Notes under the pieces: model-generated
Seen by the model: only the letters and a program-made list of their open reading frames with translations
Told to the model about the DNA's origin: nothing
Databases searched by the model: none
Assembly (NCBI RefSeq): GCF_026151205.1
Contig: NC_087075.1
Coordinates: forward strand, 2,950,359-3,014,358
Source: Bolinopsis microptera
Taxonomy: Eukaryota; Ctenophora; Tentaculata; Lobata; Bolinopsidae
Length of the DNA: 64,000 nucleotides
Direction of reading: 5' to 3'
Shown: positions 10,862 through 57,975 of the stretch, piece by piece
How positions within the stretch are numbered: the stretch's first letter is position 1
How the letters are laid out: each line of letters starts with the position of its first letter
Translations under genes and position numbers: made by a program

Positions 10862-12236
10862 ATCATCTCTTTTTGATTATATTGTCAGGGTACTTTATAA
10901 AGTCGAAATATGCGCTGATACGATGAAGTTTCAACGATTTCGAAATTTTTCCTTTAAAAACATTTCCTTGTGTTTAGGTAAGCATATCGGTCGATCACTG
11001 ACTGAATATGCCACCTAATACTCATTCAAGTTGGCATTAAATTCATATATAATGACATTAAACTGTCGTGGCAAAGCAGAATTTGTTGGAAATCACGAAT
11101 GAGCAAATTCTCACCTTTCGCACGTGCAAACTATGAGCGGACGTTGCGTGCGCATTGAATATTAAATCGCCGTAAATTTTTGCATGTAATTGTTTTATAT
11201 ATAGCTTGATAAGCATGCAAAGTTTCAAAGTATTTCAAGAAGAACTGTAATCACAACGGCACTCTAAAGTTGACAGAAAATGACGAAAACAGCAATTTCC
11301 AGTGATTTTAGTAATTTTCTATCAATTTGGGCGTGTCCCCACGTGTGCAACTTTTCGATTTTCAACTTTAAAACTAGCCTAATGCACAATTTATACCTAT
11401 AGGAAGCAGAACTAAGCTCCACAACCCAAGGCATGGCCCAACACCAGAGAATACTAAATCGCAAAATTGACGTTTTTATAAAATAATTCTTCAAAAAAGC
11501 ACAAACTTCAATGACGAATATCTTTATGAAGGAGCAAGCTAGAAAAACTTTCCAGTAGATTTTCAGAATGCTTGAACAATTATCTAAGATGAAAATTTCC
11601 TCAGATTTTGAATATAATTACTTTTTAATGGTGTAAAATCATTTTTAAAAGTGATTACTTTGTCAAAAATCAAGTTTTAAAAACGGTCAACTTGATGACG
11701 TCATCAAGGGGTGTTCATGACGTCAAATAATTTTTTTATACAATGTAAACTAAAGTGTAAACAATTATTTTCAAGACCGGTGGTCGGAAATGGCTGTATC
11801 TTTTATACTTTTGAATCTATGGACAATTAAATACAGGCTACAATTGACTGGCAAAGCGTCTATCCCTGAATATGTATATATATATATATCACGACAATCT
11901 ATCGTAAAACAGGGGTTCTAGAAAACCCACTTCCCGATGCTCCTGAAACCTGAAACTTTTTTTGCAGGCGATTTGGTCAACGCCTAGACGCCCTGAAAAA
12001 TTTCAGATCTCTAACTCAATTTTAACATGGTTTTTAAGGCACCTGAATATGGCGATTTTGGGTTTTTTACCGAATTTCGTATAACAGTGCTGGCGAGTAT
12101 TTTATGCAAATTTCTTAAAAATCTCAACATAACTATTTTTTATTCCTGTCATCTTTGACATCAAATTAGAATGTTTTGAACTAAAAATAAATCTGCTGAA
12201 CGACTTCCGATGAGTCTTAATGCCTGAAAAACTCCT

Positions 12237-12295
12237 GCCGGAGGCGGCGGCCTTCGGCCGCCGCCTCCGGCCGGAGTGCACGCTTCGCGTGCACG
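12237..12295. repeat. Two GC-rich hairpins
   Basis: Hairpin 1 (about 12240-12270) has a 14 bp stem of G/C-rich sequence around TTC, containing a C-TTCG-G core. Hairpin 2 (about 12276-12294) is gtgcacgc-ttc-gcgtgcac. They sit in otherwise AT-rich sequence and are absent from the equivalent position in copy A. In RNA, C(UUCG)G is an exceptionally stable tetraloop. Confidence 0.8.
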
Positions 12296-12342
12296 AAAGA
12301 GGCTTGTAACGTGTACCAAAGGGGGTATAATAGTAAAGGGGG

Positions 12343-13115
12343 TATATATACATATCACCGGAGACTCGCGGGCGGAACAAAATATTGCACGCGCACGCGC
12401 GTGCAATATTTCATATGTCCCCGAGGGCGCTAGCCCGAGGAGGACATATTTTCGTATAGCACGGAGGGCCCATCGGGCCCGAGTGCTATACGATTTTTCC
12501 GCCCGCGGGTCGAGGTGATGTGGATTATATCCACCAGCGGGCGTATTACAGTTAATATATAATTTTATAAATAAACAATGGAGCTTGTATAAAAGTCAAC
12601 TCTAGAAAAGGTCGCCACTAATTGTTGTAACCATGGTAACACGTCACGTGTTCAATGTAAGCCAATCATAAAGGGCTTTGTCGTATATAGGGGCTCGAGA
12701 TGCACTGCATTCCCAGGCCGTTACGTGGGAATAATGAATGTAATGTCAGTGACGATGAATATCAATAATATAGGGGGATTATAGTGCTGATGTGTATTAT
12801 GTAGTGTGTTACAATAACTTTGATATAAATCAAAATATCATGTCATCTGCTCACGAGCTGCATGAGCAGCCCTACCGGACACAAAAATGAAATGTATAAT
12901 ATTATATATATAGTCAGTGTAATATAAGGAATTTCACATGGAGACGATACAGAAACTGAAAATATTTTAGAGAACTCCGGGCTATATTGCTACTGGTCAA
13001 ATTAAATGTCACTTGTTAGCGGGCTATATCATGAGCGGGCTGTAGAGATATCGGGCCCTTTGACAGCGGGCTGGTGAGAGCCCGCTATGCGAAAAAGCGC
13101 ACGCTGGTGGATATA
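12343..13115 (+). mobile_element. Three-arm palindromic element, copy 1
   Basis: It begins tatatatacatatcaccgg and ends acgctggtggatata. It shares nearly identical sequence with 19714-20770 over most of its length. The left ~170 bp is the nested palindrome described separately. The motif tatatccaccagcg just inside it is repeated in inverted orientation at the right end. The right ~110 bp is also palindrome-rich (ttagcgggct...agcccgcta). It is flanked by 'tataatagtaaag(g/a)gggtata' on both sides, which may be a target duplication or a pre-existing tandem repeat. No transposase is visible, and the superfamily is unknown. Confidence 0.7.
12351..12522 (+). repeat. Stem with three hairpin arms (cruciform), copy 1
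   Basis: The outer stem pairs 12351-12376 (catatcaccgg...gggcgga) with 12498-12522 (tccgcccgcggg...ggtgatgtg). Inside lie three adjacent palindromes: 12380-12411 (aaatattgcacgcgc and its complement), 12413-12449 (atatgtcc...ggacatat with a gagggc/gccc inner stem) and 12453-12492 (cgtatagcac...gtgctatacg with an agggccc/gggccc inner stem). The ensemble is a four-way junction with three arms. Confidence 0.88.
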
Positions 13116-13200
13116 ATAGTAAAGAGGGTATAATAGTAAATGGGGTACATAGTATACCCACAATAAATGCAACGGTCGTGCTTGCCAGCACTGTGATATT

Positions 13201-15100
13201 GTTGTTCAAATTTATTTTTTATAATACGACATATACCGTAAATACTAATAATAATAATAATGAAGCAGACCAGTAAATATTTCGAATAAACTAAAACATC
13301 AGTACGTAAGTACAGTGGACAAAAATAAAATAGCTAATTATAAGTATAATTAGTTGAACTTGAATTGCAGTTGGAAGTATTTTAATTTTGATCGCGAGGA
13401 TCGTTATCGGTCTAAATTATACTTATAGATTACGTGCCGGGTTAAAAATAAATAACCGATGTTATCCTTCAGTGTGTGTGGTAGTGGTACTTGTACAACT
13501 CAATCGAAGCCGAACTTTTAAAAAGCTTCCTCGTACAGATAAAAAGTTTGAAGTTGGAAGAATGACACTATTAGTATTAGTATTACCAATACGCGGCGCG
13601 ACGAGGCGACAACGTTGTCCCCCAAATAAAATGCCAATTGCCAATGCAAAACAACCCGGCGTTGTCTGACCTGAATTCTTTCATAATATTAAAGTCATTA
13701 AGCATAGCTTATAGATGAAGGCCAATGAGGTATTCTGGTATTAACTTTAAGGGTTTAAACTTAAAGAGGTATGACTATAAACTTAAGGTAGACGGTCAGT
13801 GACTGCATGGCCGCTTTTATTCGCAGTTGTACGCTGGTAGTTATAGTGGTAGAACATCGATACTGATACTGATAGCAAGTTACAGACTGTAACTTATAGT
13901 TATACAGTCGCATGACCACGGAGTCGGCGCGGCACCGACTCAGCGTATATTTGAAAATGTACTACCTGTACGTGGTACATATTATTTTGGTGATCTTCCA
14001 TTTTTCATCATGATTTCAATGTATTTAGTTTTACTTAACCAATCGAGCATTGCCATTAGCTAACGCATAACGACCTTCAACCTGTTAGATTTTTTGAGTG
14101 GTTGCGCCGCGGGATATAGGACTATTAGTATTACATTGGTTAAGGTTTAAAAACGTTGTATTATACTCCACGCTGCAGGCTTGCCACTTCGTGGCCCGCC
14201 GACTTTGGTTATGTATTTCAAGTATTTCAGGATTGGGTTATAGGTGGAGTCTAAAAATAGTTTAACATTATTCGAAGACTAAACTTATGACTAGAGAAAT
14301 TTTAATCACAACGCAAACAGTACGTGTCTTTATCTTTCGATCGAAAACAGAAAAGTCGGTCGAAAAGACGACTGATAGATGGCATATTTGATCGATACAA
14401 GTTTTACTTTTAGGTATAATAGTAACTCAATGGTGAGCCTACAAGTCTACACGGAACATGGTTAGAACAAATAGGATGCTATATTTCCAACAGTACTCGT
14501 TTCCTTCTTTGTATCATCTTATTTGTAGTATAGCCGAATAAAATTCATACATTATTTGTGAATTTCAGAATTTAAGACGAAAACATGTGACATGACAAGA
14601 CAATCTTCAATATTTTAAAGCTAGATTTCTAGATATCCCAACTTGAACTTAATATCTGTTTAACGCCATTTTCCGAGTAATCTTACGTTAAGAACATTCT
14701 TGAGATTTAAGCTGCTTTAATGAAAAGTAGCAGAAGCATAACCGAAACCACCACAGTGCCATATTGTTCATGTTCACAATCGTTAGAAGTTTGGGCAAAA
14801 TTCACTGAATTCCTCCGCATGAATACCATTCTTAAATATGAAAAGCAAACAACTAAAAGTTAAAACCTAACTAAAGATAATGATTAATGATAATAAAATA
14901 CAATTGTCTAAAATGATCTTAAAATATTAATTAAGACAATTAAATAATTAAACTATACATTTCTTACGTCAAACTGTTGTCAATAAGAATCACTTTCTCT
15001 AAATCAGTTCATTGAGCGACCGAAATTCGTCATTAGTCTGAAATTCAGTCTCAAGGACCAGGACAAAGTTTGTCGCGGACGCGTTAGACGTGGTGACCAG
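13201..15100. other. Non-genic stretch 3' of the homeobox gene
   Basis: AT-rich. I see no supported exon; the opposing open frames at 13388-13669 and 13462-13644 overlap and have no domain features. The 3' UTR of the minus-strand homeobox gene probably extends into the upper part of this interval. Confidence 0.4.
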
Positions 15101-15162
15101 TGACGTCATAGCTACTGATGACGTCATAAACATTGATGACGTCATAGTCACGTGTGACGTCA
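15101..15162. promoter_or_regulatory. Four CRE (TGACGTCA) sites at exact 18 bp spacing
   Basis: TGACGTCA occurs at 15101, 15119, 15137 and 15155, each exactly 18 bp apart, with a CACGTG embedded before the last. The intervening bases are partly diverged while the 8 bp palindromes are intact. TGACGTCA is the consensus of CREB/ATF bZIP factors. The array lies about 100 bp beyond the stop codon of the homeobox gene, in its 3' UTR or 3' flank. Confidence 0.8.
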
Positions 15163-15264
15163 CAGTAAATGTACAAGGTTTGTCAACAATCTGAGCTACG
15201 TGGTCTCTATCTTCCAGTGCAGGGTACGGAGAATTGTTGGCGGTCAGTGACCGTTGCAGCCTAT

Positions 15265-18200
15265 TCAGGAGAGAGGTGATCGCTGGACCGTCCCGTATTG
15301 GGACCGACACTGGGCCATTTGTTGAGGGAATCCAGGGACAGTGGAGTAGAGGGGCCCGTTACCAGCCATGGTGGGTAGAGTGGCTCCTGAAAGGAAGAGA
15401 CTTGTTAGCGGGTACAGTGACAGTTATTATTATCAGACCATCAAGATTCAAGAGGGTGGTGTCCTGCTGCAGCGAACAGTACAATAACATAAATATGGAA
15501 CTGCTTGATCTGTTTCATAATGCTTGTCATTTTTACTGAAAACGGGCACTCGACTTTTGCTTTTGTAACGTCATTATTAAAATATTCTAGACTAGAGTCC
15601 TCATTTGATTATCTTGGTTAATTATCGGTTTTAAACCTTCTTTAAAACACATGCGCAGCAGTGACTCAGCAAATTCAAATGTAAAATGACTACCTTTTAA
15701 AAGACTTACCGAACTGACTGTGAGACTGAGGGTAGTTGACCAGAGCATTGTTAGCTAGAGGGTGTTGGAGATGGGGATGGTGGTAGCCGTGGATACCGTG
15801 TCCAGGCATCATGTTCCCAGTGGAGAGTGGTACCCCGTACCCCCCGAATAGGTCACTGTCCAGGTGGCTGTCTAAAAAGGTAACTGGGTAATTGATTGGG
15901 TAATTGATTGGGTCATTTGGGGATTAATTGTGTACAAATCATATTAAGTGGCGATTCTTTCTGAAATTATCATCGTAAAGACCGTGATTGTTTATTATTA
16001 TTTGAATTAAGAATAAGAAATTAACTCACTGGGAATGTTGATGGTCTGCTGGTTGGTGTCAATACCTTTCTGGGCCATCTCCCTCTTCCATTTGGCTCGG
16101 CGGTTCTGGAACCAAATTTTAACCTGAAATCGAAATGTGTTATGGACACGAATTTATGAAAAGTACACACAATGAAATAACAATTAAATCATCCGAATGT
16201 TGATTAAATCAACTCAAAAATAGAGAAGCGAATAGTAATCAGCAAAACAGAAGTGAAACAGAAAGTGTAAGTACCTGAGTTTCAGTTAGCTGTAGAGAGT
16301 AAGCAAGTCTAGCTCTTTCGGAAGCACTGAGGTACTTCTGAGCATTGAATCGTCGTTCTAGGCGGAATAGCTGGGATATCGAGAATATCGTCCTCACTCG
16401 TTTCTCCTTCTTCGCAACTTCTCGTCTTACATCGTCCTCTGCAATAAAGAATTGGTTAGTTACTGAGTACAAAAGTTAGGGGTTTGGTGAAATGTTTGGA
16501 CCAATTTGTCAGTGAATAGAGTATTTTCTTCTCTAAAATAAGCTATCAGATCAGTGAAATGCTTAATAAGAAGGTATCAATAGGACTAGTACATGACTTC
16601 GCATTATCTACTAACGACCAGGCCGGAATGCAAAACATTTACTTTATTTTAGGGCGTGCTTTCACAAACACGGCAGATCACAACCCCCAAAATCAGCGGC
16701 CCGAGAATTGTATCCGCATTTCCAATCAGCCTGTCGAGCAATTCCCCGTTGGATACCATCACAACCCACGTCACCAGCCACACCAGCACAAATACCCCCA
16801 AAACAGCAGCTCCGACTCCTTCATAAACCTTGTTAACTCACGACCAGCTTGCTTGTGGATCTTGTCGGAGGGACCGGTATAAACTTATAAATATGACAAA
16901 CTAATGGGGGTTAGACCAGATATTCCTCACTTCAGAGCAAGACGGGTGATCTAGGAACTAAGGTCCGAGCAATATTACACCAGCGACTGATACCTACAGT
17001 ACTTTATTAGATTTTCTCTCCGGTTTTAGTTTAGTATATTTTTCCTCTCCCCTGGAGGGCAGTGTGAAGGGAGTTAGTGTAGATGTGAGGAGTGTAGGTG
17101 ATACACTGAATTTGTCAATTATAGAGTGTGGGAGGAGTTGAAGAGAGGAGAGAGGGAGAAGAAGAAGAGGAGATGAGCTTCCAATACTCGTGACTCCAGG
17201 CAGAATACTCGGTCCTTTTGAGGAAAGTACTCACGGCTCCAATTATTGACATCGTAAAAGTACTTACGATCCAATAACTATAGATCAAGAGGATAAGACC
17301 GCTGGAAATATTTCCCTCAACTTTATTGTATTTGTGAAACACATCGCTGCTAGCACACGCACCTAACACAAGGAAAGGTCCCTAAAAGTATCCTTTTATG
17401 ATTAGCCACACTTCCTTCTTGTGGAACTGCTTCCGTTACATCAGAACTAAGAGTGATAAATGGCCCGAACTGAATATTTCACTACCTGTTGTGAGACATT
17501 TAAGTAGCAGACGACCCTTTGAAACACATTCCTCACAGATTCCCTTATCGTAGTCTACGTTAATACCAAGTCACGTGGCAATGACGTCATGTCACATGAT
17601 ATAAACCGCAGCACGTGACCTACAAGCGTTGCTAAGGAACAAAGCAGGGATAACACGTGACACTCACGAGGGTTCTTATCAGCAATACTGCAGGGAGGGA
17701 CTGAGACTGATAATTCAGAACAATTCATTTCCCAACAAATTATATTATTATTTAAGTATTTGAGAAGCCGTGAAAACAAGCCCAGCCACTCACACCTCCC
17801 CCCATCTCCCACGTGACCCAAACCTCCCAGTCAGGTCCCAAACCAGAAAACTTTCAATCTAGTAATCCACAGATAACGGCTCCCCAATATTTGATAAACT
17901 GCATAAAATTGGTTTCAATTCACACGCGTAGAGAGGGAAACAGAGCAGGGAATGGGTGGTTAGAGAGAGAAACAGAGCAGGAAAGCTAGACGGGCCACCC
18001 CAAACAGACAGCCCGGTCCCTAATTAAATCACTTCACAGTACTCAGTATCATATCTGGGACCCTTCCGTTAAATCTTTACTAGGCTTCTCCGCTTAACCA
18101 AATACCATTATATTACCTGACAAAATGGTAAACATTATCCGAAAGATTGGAGCTATTGCCGTCGGTGACGTAGGGGCTGTGGAGCCGCAGATTTGTTGGT

Positions 18201-21200
18201 GTGTACAGGATTGAAATTAACATTTTCTTATCTGGGGAAACCGATAATCTAGGGACCGATACATGAGTGAAATAAAATTTCCAGTCAGGATTTAGAAAAT
18301 CTAGAATTTATGTAATTAGTATGGACAGAAGCCGTACATGAACAAAGAGTCGCTAAAGTCAGGAAATTATTTGAAGGGAAGGAATTGTGGGGTAGGATCT
18401 GAAATACATTGAAAATTTAATGAGATCTTGAGAAATTGGAGTTCAAGTGATAAAGGGGAGTTAGGCGTTAGGTAAATCAGCTACATCCCCGCAATCTAGA
18501 TCCCTCAGCTAATAAAAATCTAAACGGGCCCACCTAAATAGCAGTTGGAAAACCGTTACAGTGTGGCAATCAGTTAATTACAGTTTAAATGGTAGTGCAC
18601 AAGCCACAATTAGTGAGCTTGCTCCAAGTACTTAATAACCAATTAGGGGTGATTAGAGGGCCGCTGGAGTCCATCAAGCAGAGCAACTACTGGCTATTTA
18701 AGTGGGGGGTCAAATGTGGGTCACGTGCTTTTCAAGCAGGAACAGTAATATTGCAACGGTTATACTTTCTGTTATGGTTAAAATTATCCGACTTATTCGT
18801 TACAATTGGGGAGATGGCAGTGCACTGTATTTGAGTATTAGGGAAGCAGCATTGTAGTTTTATTGACCATCTCTAATACACGGTTAGAGACAGAGAAAAT
18901 AATGTCTAGTCGGTGAATTTGTAACTATGTTGTGACACGTGGTACCCACGTGACACACACCAGTGAAATACCACACTTCCCACAATTACCTCATTTGAGA
19001 TCTCCGTGATTGTTCCCCCATAATAATTATGTCTGTCACAAGAGTTCATATAAAATAACTTCCTAATGAATTGCGCACTAATGCTCTGCTCCCTCACAAA
19101 CAGTATCCGCCAAATCACCACTACAACAGGGTCCTGTGCACATAACGAGACTGGAGCAGGGAGCGGGTTTTAGCAGGAAGACACGGCGCCCCCGTCAATC
19201 ACAGATTCGGAACATTTACCGGTTTGGGGCATCGGCGAGGCGGCAATATCATCTGGTTAAGACGTTATAGTGTGCGGGAATTTTAGTGGAGTACTGTTGA
19301 TTTGAGATGAGGATTAAGTAATATGGGAAATAAGGGGTAAATTGAAACATTACTTTGCTTGTTGGATGCCGCTTCAGTGACAAGTGTTGGTTACAACGTG
19401 ACATTATCAACCAATAAAATGCTCCTGTTTCAACCACGTGGCCCATTTCAACCAATGAAATCGCCTCGTTTTGAACTGTAACCCGAAGCTGCACAATAAT
19501 CACATTTAAAATGGGGCTCGTTTTTAGCCGCAAATCCGTGTCGCCAGCAAGCTGCAACTTTTACTGAACTACCAGCCAATCACAACAACTTCTACCCTCA
19601 CCAGCCAATCAGGAGCTAGAACCACGCCACGTGTCCTGTAGCGATCCAATGAGAAGCCAGGATTCGGGGCACTTGAGCCCTGCACACTTCACTGATAATG
19701 GGGGTATGACTGCTATATATACATATCACCGGAGACTCGCGGGCGGAACAAAATATTGCACGCGCACGCGCGTGCAATATTTCATATGTCCCCGAGGGCG
19801 CTAGCCCGAGGAGGACATATTTTCGTATAGCACGGAGGGCCCATCGGGCCCGAGTGCTATACGATTTTTCCGCCCGCGGGTCGAGGTGATGTGGATTATA
19901 TCCACCAGCGGGCGTTTTACAGTTAATATATAATCTTATAAATAAACAATGGAGCTTGTATAAAAGTCAACTCTAGAAAAGGTCGCCACTAATTGTTGTA
20001 ACCATGGTAACACGTCACGTGTTCAATGTAAGCCAATCATAAAGGGCTGTGTCGTATATAGGGGCTGGAGATAAGAGATCCATACTGGCACTGCATTCCT
20101 GGGCCGTGAGAATAATGAATGTAATGTCAGTGACGATGAATATCAATAATAGGGGGATTATCATATAGTGCTGACTAGCAGGAACCCGTCTACCCTAAAG
20201 TGGTGTCAAGACTCGAGAGACTAAAATAATTATTACCTATTTAATTTGCGTTTTTGACACCACTTGGGAGTCCAAATTTTGGGCACTAAAATTCTTATTC
20301 CTTGGCCAATTTTTTACTTTTTCATGCTGATTTGAAGGCCATTAAAGCATTTGACCCAGTCAAAAAAGTTTCAGTTGTATATCTTTTACGGTTTTTGCGG
20401 AAAGTCGCGTTAAAGTTGATGCCATGGTGTCAGTAAAATGGCACGGAACCATATATATCGTCTCGCTTTATATATAGTAAGATGTGTATTAATATTATAT
20501 GTAGTGTGTTATAATAACTTTGATATATATCAAAGTATCATGTCATCTGCTCACGAGCTGCATGAGCAGCCCTACCGGACACAAAAATCAAATATATATA
20601 TCTCCGTGCTATGAAAATATTTTAGAGAACTCCGGGCTATATTGCTACTGGTCAAATTAAATGTCACTTGTTAGCGGGCTATATCATGAGCAGGCTGTAG
20701 AGATATCGGGCCCTTTGACAGCGGGCTGGTGAGAGCCCGCTATGCAAAAAAGCGCACGCTGGTGGATATAGTAATGAGTTAATCTGTGCTTTGTAAACTT
20801 CCGCACGTGTGAATGATAGAGGAGCTTGCTGGCTGCCCATTGGCTCGTTACCACAGTTACTATAATACTGCACTCTTATTGGTGGTTTGTCGTGACGTAA
20901 CCACCGGTGATTGGGTAACTTTTCACACGGTTTTGTTAATAGGACTGATGTTAATTACGTGGATCAAAGCTGGCTGTATAATTTGTTAGCGTCAATTATT
21001 GTTTGAAATGATGACCGAATACCGGCGGCGGTGCCAGGTCGTCCTTATTTTGCACCTTAATTTTAACGGTCCATGACAGGAGCTGAGAGGATGCTCTGAG
21101 CCTGGAACATGCTCTAAAATCAACCTGTTACCTCCACCTAACACCTCCACAGGTACTTGCTCCTTTATAATATTACTTCAGGACTAGTATGGGAGTCATG

Positions 21201-55496: not shown

Positions 55497-57975
55497 TATC
55501 CCAAATTTATGATGACGCAGAAAAGTCTTGGAGCCATCATGAACTGGTGCACCGACAACGGGCTGAAGCTAAGTACTCTTAAAACACATACAGTAATGTT
55601 CACCTGGAGGAGGAAATGGGAATTCTCTGAACCTCTAACAGTGAACGGAACCGAAATAAGTATGCGTAACTCAACTAAGTTTCTAGGAGTAACACTCGAT
55701 AGCAAACTCACGTGGAATGAACACATCAAAAATCAATGTAAAAAAGCCAAAGGCATACTCATGCAATGCAGGAGAGCCATTGGACCAACATGGGGGTTCA
55801 CCCCCAAGACCATGAAATGGATTTATACGGCTGTGGTCAGACCTTCCCTGACATACGCTGCGACAATCTGGCTCAATGGTGTGTCCAAAAAACATAACTT
55901 AATAATCCTAAGCAGCGTTCAGCGGCTAGGGAATATGGGGGGGGGGGGGGGGGGGGGCCAACCATATTAAAGTATATTAAAATGTAGGATTTTTCCCGAT
56001 TTTGACCCGGGGATATACTTTAATATACTTTAATATACTTTAATATACTTTAATATATCCCTATCTCCTTGGAGGCCTACATCAAAAATTGTTGCCCAAA
56101 ATAAGCTTGAAATGCAATCCTTAATCGATTCCAAAAAGTTCTTGAAAAAATATTGAAAACTGATGGAGTTATTTCAATTTTAATGAAGTTATTTTGGCTA
56201 GTATTCTGAACCGAGATATTATGTGCAATTTTCCCAATTTTGTTCATGGAGGTCTTTTTACTTAGTATCCACTATATCCAACAAACACTGAGTTATATAT
56301 TTCACATAGAGTTAGTCTCATTAAAAAATATTGAAATTTTATCGAATTTGGGCAAAAGCGAATTTGGACAAAAGCGTATGCCCAAATATGGGCATATTTT
56401 TTAAAGCTCATAGCTCAGCCAATTTTTGACCAATCTGGATGGAAATTCATGTACTAGTCCTAAAACAGGCTTATCTTGCGAATCTGAGTGAAAAATATAG
56501 TTCATCATGTAAATCTTAACGAAGAATATAAATCTTCTAATTGTAGGTATATTAAAGTATATTAAATTGTAGGATTTTATCCGATTTTGACCCGGGGATA
56601 TACTTTAATATACTTTAATATGGTTGGCCCCCCCCCCCCCCCAATATTTTCATAACAGGAGGGTTACCATCAACTCCTGGAGCAGTTCTAGACATCATCA
56701 CAGGAATCGTCCCCATCGACCTGGTGATAGAAGAGGAAGCAGCGAAAGGAGCTCTTAGACTCAAATCCAACAACCACTGGATATATGAGCCGATGGTTAA
56801 TAAGAAGGGTAATCTAATCACCCATACAAAACTCAACGAACAGTTACTAAAGGCCATCAAACTCGATTCTGAAGACAAGACCAACAGACTACATCACTGA
56901 ATGTTGACATTGGTTTTACCACAGAAATTCCACGACTCTCCGAGTACGAGGAAATTGAGAATGACGCTAACACCATACAATGCTACACAGATAGTTCCAA
57001 AATGAATGAACAAGTTGGAGCAGGAGTGTACATTGTCGATAACGACACCCCTCCACGCGAGGAGTCCTACCACCTAGGAACCAACTCAACCGTCTTCCAG
57101 GCCGAGACATTTGCCGTAGGCACAGCGGCAAAAATACTACGGGAATCTGGAACCAAAAGTAGAAAAATCATCATAAACTGCGATAGCCAGGCGACAATAA
57201 TGGCAATGAGCAATATAAAAGTCAAATCAAAAAGCACCAGCATGGCAATAAGTGAGCTGAACCAACTAGCAACGGACAATCAAGTCCTACTACGATGGAT
57301 TCCAGCTCATAAAGGCTATGATGGTAACGAAAAGGCCGACTCTCTTGCCAAAAAAGGCTCCGATAACTTGGAATCCGCTCATGTGCAACTACCAATACCA
57401 AAGGTATTATGGAAGGGAGCGCTGCGGAGTATAAGTCATCGGAAAATGAGGGAAAGATGGAGAACGTTGCCCAACACTCACTTCAAACGAGTATGGAGAC
57501 ATAAGTTCGCCAGATCAATCCCGGCAAAGAGAGCATAAGAACAGCAACACAATTCCTTACTGGACATTGTGAACTAAACTACCACATTAATAAGTTCAAG
57601 CTGACAACGGTCCCCAAAATTTGTCCACACTGTCTCATGGAGGAGGAGACAATGAACTACTTTATTGGCCAGTGCCCGAAATGGTCTTACCGACGAGGAG
57701 GATACTTTGACTCATTTTATCTTAGCGTGACAGACATAGTGGACAAATTCTCACTACCAAGGATCATCGGCTTCATACAAGCAATACAGTACAATAGTAC
57801 AACTAAACGATTTACTAAATGCAAAGAAAACAAAATCTAAACATTTTTTTTCTTGATTTTTTAATTTTACCGGGGTAAGCACAGGGCCCCAATGCTCTAT
57901 CTTACAGTGGTCACGATCTTACTATTAGTGATATTGACCACAGCCCCCTACGAAGAAGAAGAAGACGTATTCCCT
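55497..57975 (+). pseudogene. 5'-truncated LINE with RNase H domain (I-like), dead
   Basis: Begins in the C-terminal part of a reverse transcriptase (LGAIMNWCTDNGLKLS..., KFLGVTLDSKLTW, VVRPSLTYAATIW, SVQRLGN), so the catalytic palm is missing. After a nested element (55937-56642) the same protein resumes with ITGGLPSTPGAVLDI. A frame break near 56900 precedes an RNase H domain (57002-57538) with the four acidic residues in YTDSSK, QAETFAV, NCDSQAT and NEKADSLAK. Another frame change at about 57540 leads to a C-terminal zinc-knuckle-like CPHC...C (57541-57840) whose usual His is Asn. The 3' end has (gaa)n repeats at 57951-57966, as in I-clade LINEs. The copy cannot transpose by itself. Confidence 0.85.
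55937..56642. mobile_element. Poly-G-ended element nested in the LINE
   Basis: Begins with 21 G then CCAACCATATTAAAG; ends CTTTAATATGGTTGG then 15 C. It is flanked by AATAT on both sides (55932-55936, 56643-56647). Removing it with one AATAT restores the LINE reading frame, which confirms the boundaries. Near each end lies a copy of 'tgtaggatttt..ccgattttgacccgggg', direct relative to each other, in AT-rich ttaatatac repeats. It shares poly-G ends with the 54421 element but not the inner sequence. Confidence 0.88.

Follow-up and report, generated by a model that had tools for sequence, protein, structure and literature searches.

Short, probably Helitron2/Helentron-related elements with a three-arm 3' end in the genome of Bolinopsis microptera

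The window, a stretch of 64,000 nucleotides (C4:2950359-3014358) from the 265-Mb assembly of Bolinopsis microptera, contains a sequence that ends in a stem with three hairpin arms, and this introduces the questions of what kind of element carries such an end and how it has moved. A sequence-only reading had placed an element in two near-identical copies at positions 12343-20770. This stretch is not a single element; we found two copies of 769 and 1053 bp, separated by approximately 6.6 kb of other DNA (Table 1). Both are on the minus strand, and what had been called the left end is, in this orientation, the 3' end of the element. The three-arm block and the adjoining repeat show no difference between the copies, so that every base pair is kept in both of them, as had been claimed. 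The near-identity proposed for the copies holds at these ends but not overall, as there are 36 differences over 719 aligned bases and the interior of copy 2 has an additional segment of approximately 300 bp.

Table 1. Features of the two element copies in the window (window positions; element 5' ends are at the higher coordinates)
Feature	Position	Strand	Size, sequence or basis
Element copy 1	12347-13115	-	769 bp; 5' end 13115, 3' end 12347; flank divergence and 27 complete copies
Copy 1, 3'-terminal three-arm block	12347-12525	-	DNA fold (z -11.24); covariance model; compensatory changes between families
Copy 1, outer stem of block	12354-12359/12514-12519 and 12363-12377/12497-12511	-	
Copy 1, arms of block	12380-12411, 12413-12449, 12452-12493	-	
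Copy 1, 3'-subterminal copy of asymmetric terminal inverted repeat	12526-12539	-	plus strand reads TATATCCACCAGCG
Copy 1, 5'-terminal copy of asymmetric terminal inverted repeat	13102-13115	-	first bases of the element
Host TATA directly past copy 1 3' end (target site)	12343-12346	.	right flanks of 27 complete copies
Element copy 2	19718-20770	-	1053 bp
Copy 2, 3'-terminal three-arm block	19718-19896	-	same sequence as copy 1 block
Copy 2, 3'-subterminal inverted repeat	19897-19910	-	
Copy 2, 5'-terminal inverted repeat	20757-20770	-	

The ends of copy 1 were defined by the divergence of the flanks, of which 33 distinct ones at the 3' end and 45 at the 5' end, of unrelated sequence, were seen among the loci examined. 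We also searched the whole genome for exact matches to the ends. There are 130 exact 27-nt 5' ends and 153 exact junctions between block and repeat at the 3' end (48 T-type and 105 G-type), and a 17-nt motif, TATATCCACCAGCGNGC, occurs 346 times; the reversed-pattern controls gave 0 in every case. In the first genome search, the best 40 of 766 candidates were scored, the window copy among them, and all were 99-100% identical over 258-301 bases. Among 19 complete short copies, the mean difference is 0.83% and the largest 1.6%, although this mean is biased low because these copies were best matches. Copies are arranged head to tail, head to head, tail to tail or nested in the TATA of another copy. 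The window copies thus belong to a dispersed family of transposable elements (hereafter T1) that is real and well defined. The recent movement suggested by the sequence-only reading is borne out by the unrelated flanks, by the small difference among these best-match copies and by an exact pair of filled and empty sites.

This pair is provided by a nested copy, whose flanks, when joined without the element, are identical to the uninserted sequence over all 200 bases compared, so that the insertion was precise. In 27 complete copies with both flanks, some of which hold nested copies, the element runs from TATATCCACC to GATATGTATA. The right host flank is TATA in 23 of them, TGTA in two, and TTTA and ATAT in one each (TNTA in 26 of 27), and the two bases that follow are TC in 14 of 27. 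Given this composition, the host flank resembles the element's own start, TATATC, and the insertion site can be written as N|TATA, most commonly as N|TATATC, which corresponds to the first bases of the element itself. The first host base is T on the right in 26 and on the left in 16 of the 27 copies. Because element and target both begin with TATA, a target duplication of 2-4 bp is formally allowed. A 2-bp duplication (TA) is compatible with 26 copies, 4 bp with 23, 5 bp with 21 and 6 bp with 12, and at least 7 bp with at most two of 27. The four copies with a right flank other than TATA contradict a 4-bp TATA duplication, with the other 23 being uninformative on this point, and three of these four still fit a 2-bp TA duplication. 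The ends of Helitron1 (5' TC, 3' CTRR and insertion between A and T) are absent, as the element reads TATATCC...GTATA.

Folding the block of copy 1 as DNA gave -71.3 kcal/mol, compared with a mean of -33.1 (sd 3.4) for shuffled sequences (z -11.24); none of the 200 shuffles folded as well. This result confirms the outer stem with three hairpins that had been described for the left block. The right end had been called palindrome-rich as well, and this was supported only weakly: the 5'-terminal 76 bases gave a z of -2.21, with 4 of 200 shuffles equally good, and the 5'-terminal 141 bases were no better than chance (z -0.62). A covariance model, which was built partly from the copy 1 sequence, scored 207.2 bits on each of the two window blocks and was used to scan the window and 26 of 82 loci. 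It also matched tail-to-tail 5' ends (L012 and L044) with an E-value of 4.7e-7, and scores near this value are therefore no proof of a block.

To what extent the fold is conserved was assessed in an alignment of five blocks from three related families, a set that is small and not independent. Of its 68 consensus pairs, 11 have changed on both sides with the pairing kept, whereas shuffles gave 6.8 on average and reached this number once in 500. The proportion of pairing cells was 95.0%, compared with 88.6% in shuffles. The covariation score was 0.165, compared with 0.066 in shuffles (0 of 500 as high) and at most 0.053 with slid partners, a control that favours the structure because it was derived from the same five sequences. 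The covariation term of RNAalifold itself was slightly unfavourable (+1.82) for the five blocks. The three-arm fold thus looks selected, and the evidence is good but not final, given the small number and interdependence of the blocks and the fact that they also supplied the structure.

The organization of the two ends bears on the class of the element. Its first 14 bases (TATATCCACCAGCG) constitute one copy of an inverted repeat, which is thus situated at the 5' terminus itself, and the inverted copy abuts the three-arm block on its inner side, approximately 180 bp away from the 3' end. This repeat is the inverted motif that the sequence-only reading had seen at both ends, with TATATCCACCAGCG on the plus strand near the 3' end and its reverse complement at the 5' end. 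Related families in the same genome have the same layout with different interiors. Helitron2 is described (Bao and Jurka 2013, PMC3627910) as having asymmetric terminal inverted repeats that are short, with the 5' copy 0-2 bp from the end and the 3' copy adjoining a terminal hairpin on its upstream side; the first base of Helitron2 is T, and non-autonomous copies of approximately 0.7 kb are known, all of which agrees with the element studied here. On the other hand, the 3' repeat of Helitron2 is reported to lie 20-30 bp from the 3' end, with its hairpin within that distance, whereas here a three-arm cloverleaf of approximately 165 nt places the repeat approximately 180 bp from the end; the target is given as TTTT|T/C rather than N|TATA. 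The 5' hairpin is also weak in our element, and its exact ends were found without a link to RepHel.

The Helentrons and HINEs, including DINE-1 and the oyster Cg_HINEs (PMC4067079, PMC7492417), are likewise described as non-coding and abundant, with subterminal inverted repeats, a 3' palindrome and a T-rich or A+T-rich target. The layout of HINEs is reported to be similar to that of Helitron2, and in mite HINEs the 3' subterminal repeat lies 38-60 bp from the end, with palindromes of 5-10 bp (PMC4067079). The portions of these reports that we drew on do not mention a three-arm end, and the T1 family differs from Helentrons and HINEs in having no demonstrated link to an endonuclease-bearing RepHel. 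The descriptions that we consulted give target duplication as rare in Helitron2 and absent in HINEs, and the preference for T-rich or TT targets as variable between groups (PMC4067079, PMC5148889, PMC3627910). The sequence-only reading had seen no matching transposon family; judged by its sequence, however, the terminal organization of the element matches the published accounts of Helitron2, Helentrons and HINEs (PMC3627910, PMC4067079, PMC5148889), except for how large and branched the 3' structure is and for the repeat distance. None of the titles and abstract openings that we surveyed described a Helitron whose end has three arms or forms a cloverleaf, a scope outside which repeat databases and most subscription papers fall. 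A reading with symmetric terminal inverted repeats was considered and dropped, as the apparent symmetric ends are the 5' ends of neighbouring copies.

We also found another dispersed element, T2, which adjoins or lies inside some T1 copies and is unrelated to T1 in sequence. It follows the same plan: the repeat TATAAATATCTCCGGGATTTCG stands at the 5' terminus and recurs in inverted, subterminal form before a three-arm block, and the exact 3' junctions of T2 number 163 (control 0). TATA follows the 3' end of T2 at two loci (L008 and L002), and the TATA at a third (L041) belongs to a T1 copy inserted there, which begins with it. The covariance model derived from T1 matched the T2 block in L041 with an E-value of 1.1e-11, a match that is insufficient alone because the model also matched the tail-to-tail 5' ends mentioned above. 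The direct fold of the T2 block (z -9.61) is independent of that model. The 3' palindrome thus gives z-values of -11.24 in the window element, -9.61 in T2 and -5.96 in a related family, and the corresponding values for the 5' hairpin, which is weak, are -2.21, -0.48 and -0.87. Among these three 5' ends, the 5' repeat clearly pairs with downstream bases only in the related family.

Does the genome encode an enzyme that could move these elements? Helitron_like_N (Rep) has 41 matches, with E-values down to 1.5e-59, and PIF1 has 40. Rep and PIF1 share open frames at 23 places, where they lie within 6 kb and have equal frame lengths (786-3388 aa), and we therefore conclude that rolling-circle genes are present. 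The open frame exceeds 2000 aa at 15 of the Rep places, and C11:3834408-3859138 contains three Rep-helicase genes on one strand. We then compared these genes with the element ends, pairing 5' and 3' ends on the basis of all 48 T-type and 85 of the 105 G-type junctions (those on C1-C11) together with 37 of the 41 Rep matches, the other four being second pieces of the same loci; 15 G-type junctions on C12-C13 were compared with the Rep places by eye only, and PIF1 positions were also compared with the copy ends by eye. Among the exact ends listed (100 of the 130 5' ends), no Rep or PIF1 match lies between the two ends of one copy. The listed end closest to a Rep match is 8.1 kb away and belongs to a short copy that does not enclose it, and the second closest is at 8.7 kb, with the Rep match past the 3' end of that copy. 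By eye, no end of a related family adjoins a Rep place (best 40 of 166 and best 40 of 1476 candidates), and the closest approach for T2 is approximately 28 kb (best 40 of 183 candidates, first 100 of 163 junctions). The partners of Culex HINEs are reported to be more than 95% identical to their HINE (PMC4067079), and the absence of RepHel within the listed exact ends is therefore a real negative. This missing link is the main weakness of an explanation by Helitron2 or HINEs.

Based on these results, we propose, with a probability of roughly 0.7, that the T1 copies are short, non-autonomous, HINE-like relatives of the Helitron2/Helentron rolling-circle elements. The asymmetric layout of the repeat, the TATA target, the precise insertion and the head-to-tail pairs all point to rolling-circle movement, and the fold kept between families, the same plan in T2 and the RepHel genes in the genome are further points for Helitron2. 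Against it stand the repeat distance of approximately 180 bp, the weak 5' hairpin, the exact ends without RepHel between them and the fact that a duplication is allowed. If this proposal is true, an HUH Rep-helicase, presumably acting in trans, would nick the donor immediately ahead of the TATATCC at the 5' terminus, and one strand would be displaced through the element as far as its 3' end. Once the displaced single strand has folded, its three-arm structure may serve there, together with the 3'-subterminal repeat, as terminator and recognition site. A second nick would be made before the host TATA, and the strand would be joined at a target N|TATA, probably without a short duplication. The donor 5', donor 3' and target cuts would then have the same bases 3' of the cut, and TATA follows all three, as would be the case for a single active site reading a single motif. 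In Helraiser, a Helitron1 element that would share this rolling-circle logic, the 3' hairpin has been demonstrated to act as a terminator (PMC4778049), and we suggest the cloverleaf as a 3' end mark by analogy with that hairpin.

Could a cut-and-paste enzyme have produced the same copies? A miniature or foldback element of the DDE type would duplicate a TA or TATA target, use the repeats as transposase sites and have the block as its foldback end. The target data agree with this in part, as 26 of 27 copies fit a 2-bp and 23 a 4-bp duplication; furthermore, both extreme ends begin with TATA and share ATATC(C)ACC by eye, and there are Mutator-like elements with TA microsatellites as their targets (PMC4486113). 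However, the copies flanked by TGTA (two), TTTA and ATAT do not have the same four bases on their 5' side, and the TA duplication fits three of them only if the last base of the element varies at one position. Neither the location of the inverted repeat, approximately 180 bp inside the 3' end, nor the poor fit of longer duplications (at least 7 bp in at most two of 27 copies) favours such an element, and the extreme ends of T2, which has the same plan, are by eye not inverted repeats of each other. We therefore regard a DDE origin as unlikely. Somewhat less likely still is a rolling-circle element moved by another HUH enzyme, such as a Rep of Replitron-like or virus-like type, for which the cloverleaf would be origin or terminator. 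The logic of the nick site suits any HUH enzyme, a single-strand mechanism being conceivable for Replitrons too, and no linkage was seen between the genome's RepHel genes and the listed exact ends. Nevertheless, Replitrons are characterized in a review (PMC10741241) as lacking terminal inverted repeats and having terminal direct repeats of 5-11 bp and duplications of 2-8 bp, whereas our element has asymmetric inverted repeats, which are a mark of Helitron2 (PMC3627910).

The sequence-only reading had compared the three-arm end with rolling-hairpin replicons. Parvoviral terminal hairpins have an outer stem around arms, which the block resembles, so that it might be the telomeric hairpin of a parvovirus-like relic. 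A rolling-hairpin replicon has terminal hairpins at both ends, but here the block occurs at one end only and the other end folds poorly (z -0.62 for 141 bases, -2.21 for 76); the insertion is also precise, and the copies examined have no long open frame. The comparison is thus not supported, and such an origin is very improbable. Segmental duplications or assembly artefacts, the former of which had been named as the outcome that would overturn the transposon interpretation, might be suspected from the clustering of some copies. As 33 different 3' flanks, 45 different 5' flanks and an exact empty site were seen for the family, we rejected segmental duplication, and the chance that either explains the family is negligible.

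Within the Helitron2/Helentron reading, the T1 family most likely belongs to an ordinary class and stands out by its 3' end. Rolling-circle transposons are described as ending in a simple 3' hairpin, and the unusual part is the cloverleaf of approximately 165 nt in place of one short hairpin. A new enzyme, and with it a separate branch of eukaryotic rolling-circle or other single-strand transposons in which a 3' DNA cloverleaf is recognized by its shape, might be suspected because T1 and T2 have the same cloverleaf plan and TATA target without linkage to the RepHel genes found, but this seems doubtful to us. In either case, a three-arm end that is kept by compensatory change and recurs in the unrelated T2 provides natural variation for the question of whether terminators are read by shape or by sequence. 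The results also suggest that annotation expecting one short hairpin near the 3' end could overlook such elements or place them in the wrong orientation.

Of the first 100 listed 5' ends (130 in total), 95 could be paired with an exact 3' junction of like orientation no more than 25 kb away. Sixty of these pairs are 700-850 bp long and 23 are 1300-1800 bp, with one below 700 bp and two at 850-1300 bp; five others are 1.8-5 kb and four exceed 5 kb, one of them being the 12.6-kb copy at C11:18773516-18786146. The sequence-only reading had noticed no enzyme gene, and the copies that we examined have no long open frame; in the two that were sampled among the nine pairs of more than 1.8 kb, the longest is 83 aa in the first 1.5 kb of a 7.5-kb copy and 109 aa in a 2.2-kb piece of a 3.9-kb copy. 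An open frame at locus L076 (NERD, NPHP3_N) was considered as a transposase and set aside, as it is not a known one. The 109-aa frame of the 3.9-kb copy is part of a long inverted repeat, which also matches the 7.5-kb copy.

In one copy of the element elsewhere in the genome, at L021 and L060 (C1:17229568), we found that one arm of the three-arm block has been rebuilt and now pairs with the adjacent arm. The block still folds well in this form, and the rebuilt arm looks like the product of template switching. Longer copies of the element at L083 (C10:15394700-15396900) and L063 contain a long inverted repeat, which is common to the 3.9-kb and 7.5-kb copies and carries no long open frames.

On contig C1, six element starts lie head-to-tail at a spacing of ~1513 bp, each reading TATATCCACCAGCGGGC; when the final 300 bases of one unit were folded, no three-arm block was obvious. 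At C11:3834408-3859138, one strand carries three Rep-helicase open frames, each 1759 aa long, with spacings of 11.8 and 10.4 kb; this trio may represent autonomous Helitrons arrayed in tandem.

Features of the window and of related loci
Feature	Location	Strand	Details
GC-rich hairpin, 22-bp, separate from the element	window 12231-12277		95% complementary
Minisatellite, 17-bp unit	window 12318-12346		insertion site of copy 1
Homeodomain exon	window 16266-16436	minus	E 4.2e-12
RNase H domain	window 56873-57535		E 9.3e-14
Head-to-tail array	C1:10736475-10744064		loci L052-L057, L081
Open frame encoding NERD and NPHP3_N domains	L076:1266-2906
T2 examples	L041:6431-6611; L008:2275-3037

Within the window, the homeodomain exon sits between copies 1 and 2, and the RNase H domain is perhaps part of a non-LTR retrotransposon. 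The flanks of copy 1 resemble those of loci L002 and L010.

The open frame at L076 lies immediately inside a 5' end of related type. Given that its 5' flank is identical at three places, the locus is perhaps a segmental duplication.

A further dispersed family, T2, is unrelated in sequence to T1, the family of the two window copies; its 3' end is three-armed as in T1, its target is TATA, and its exact 3' junctions number 163.
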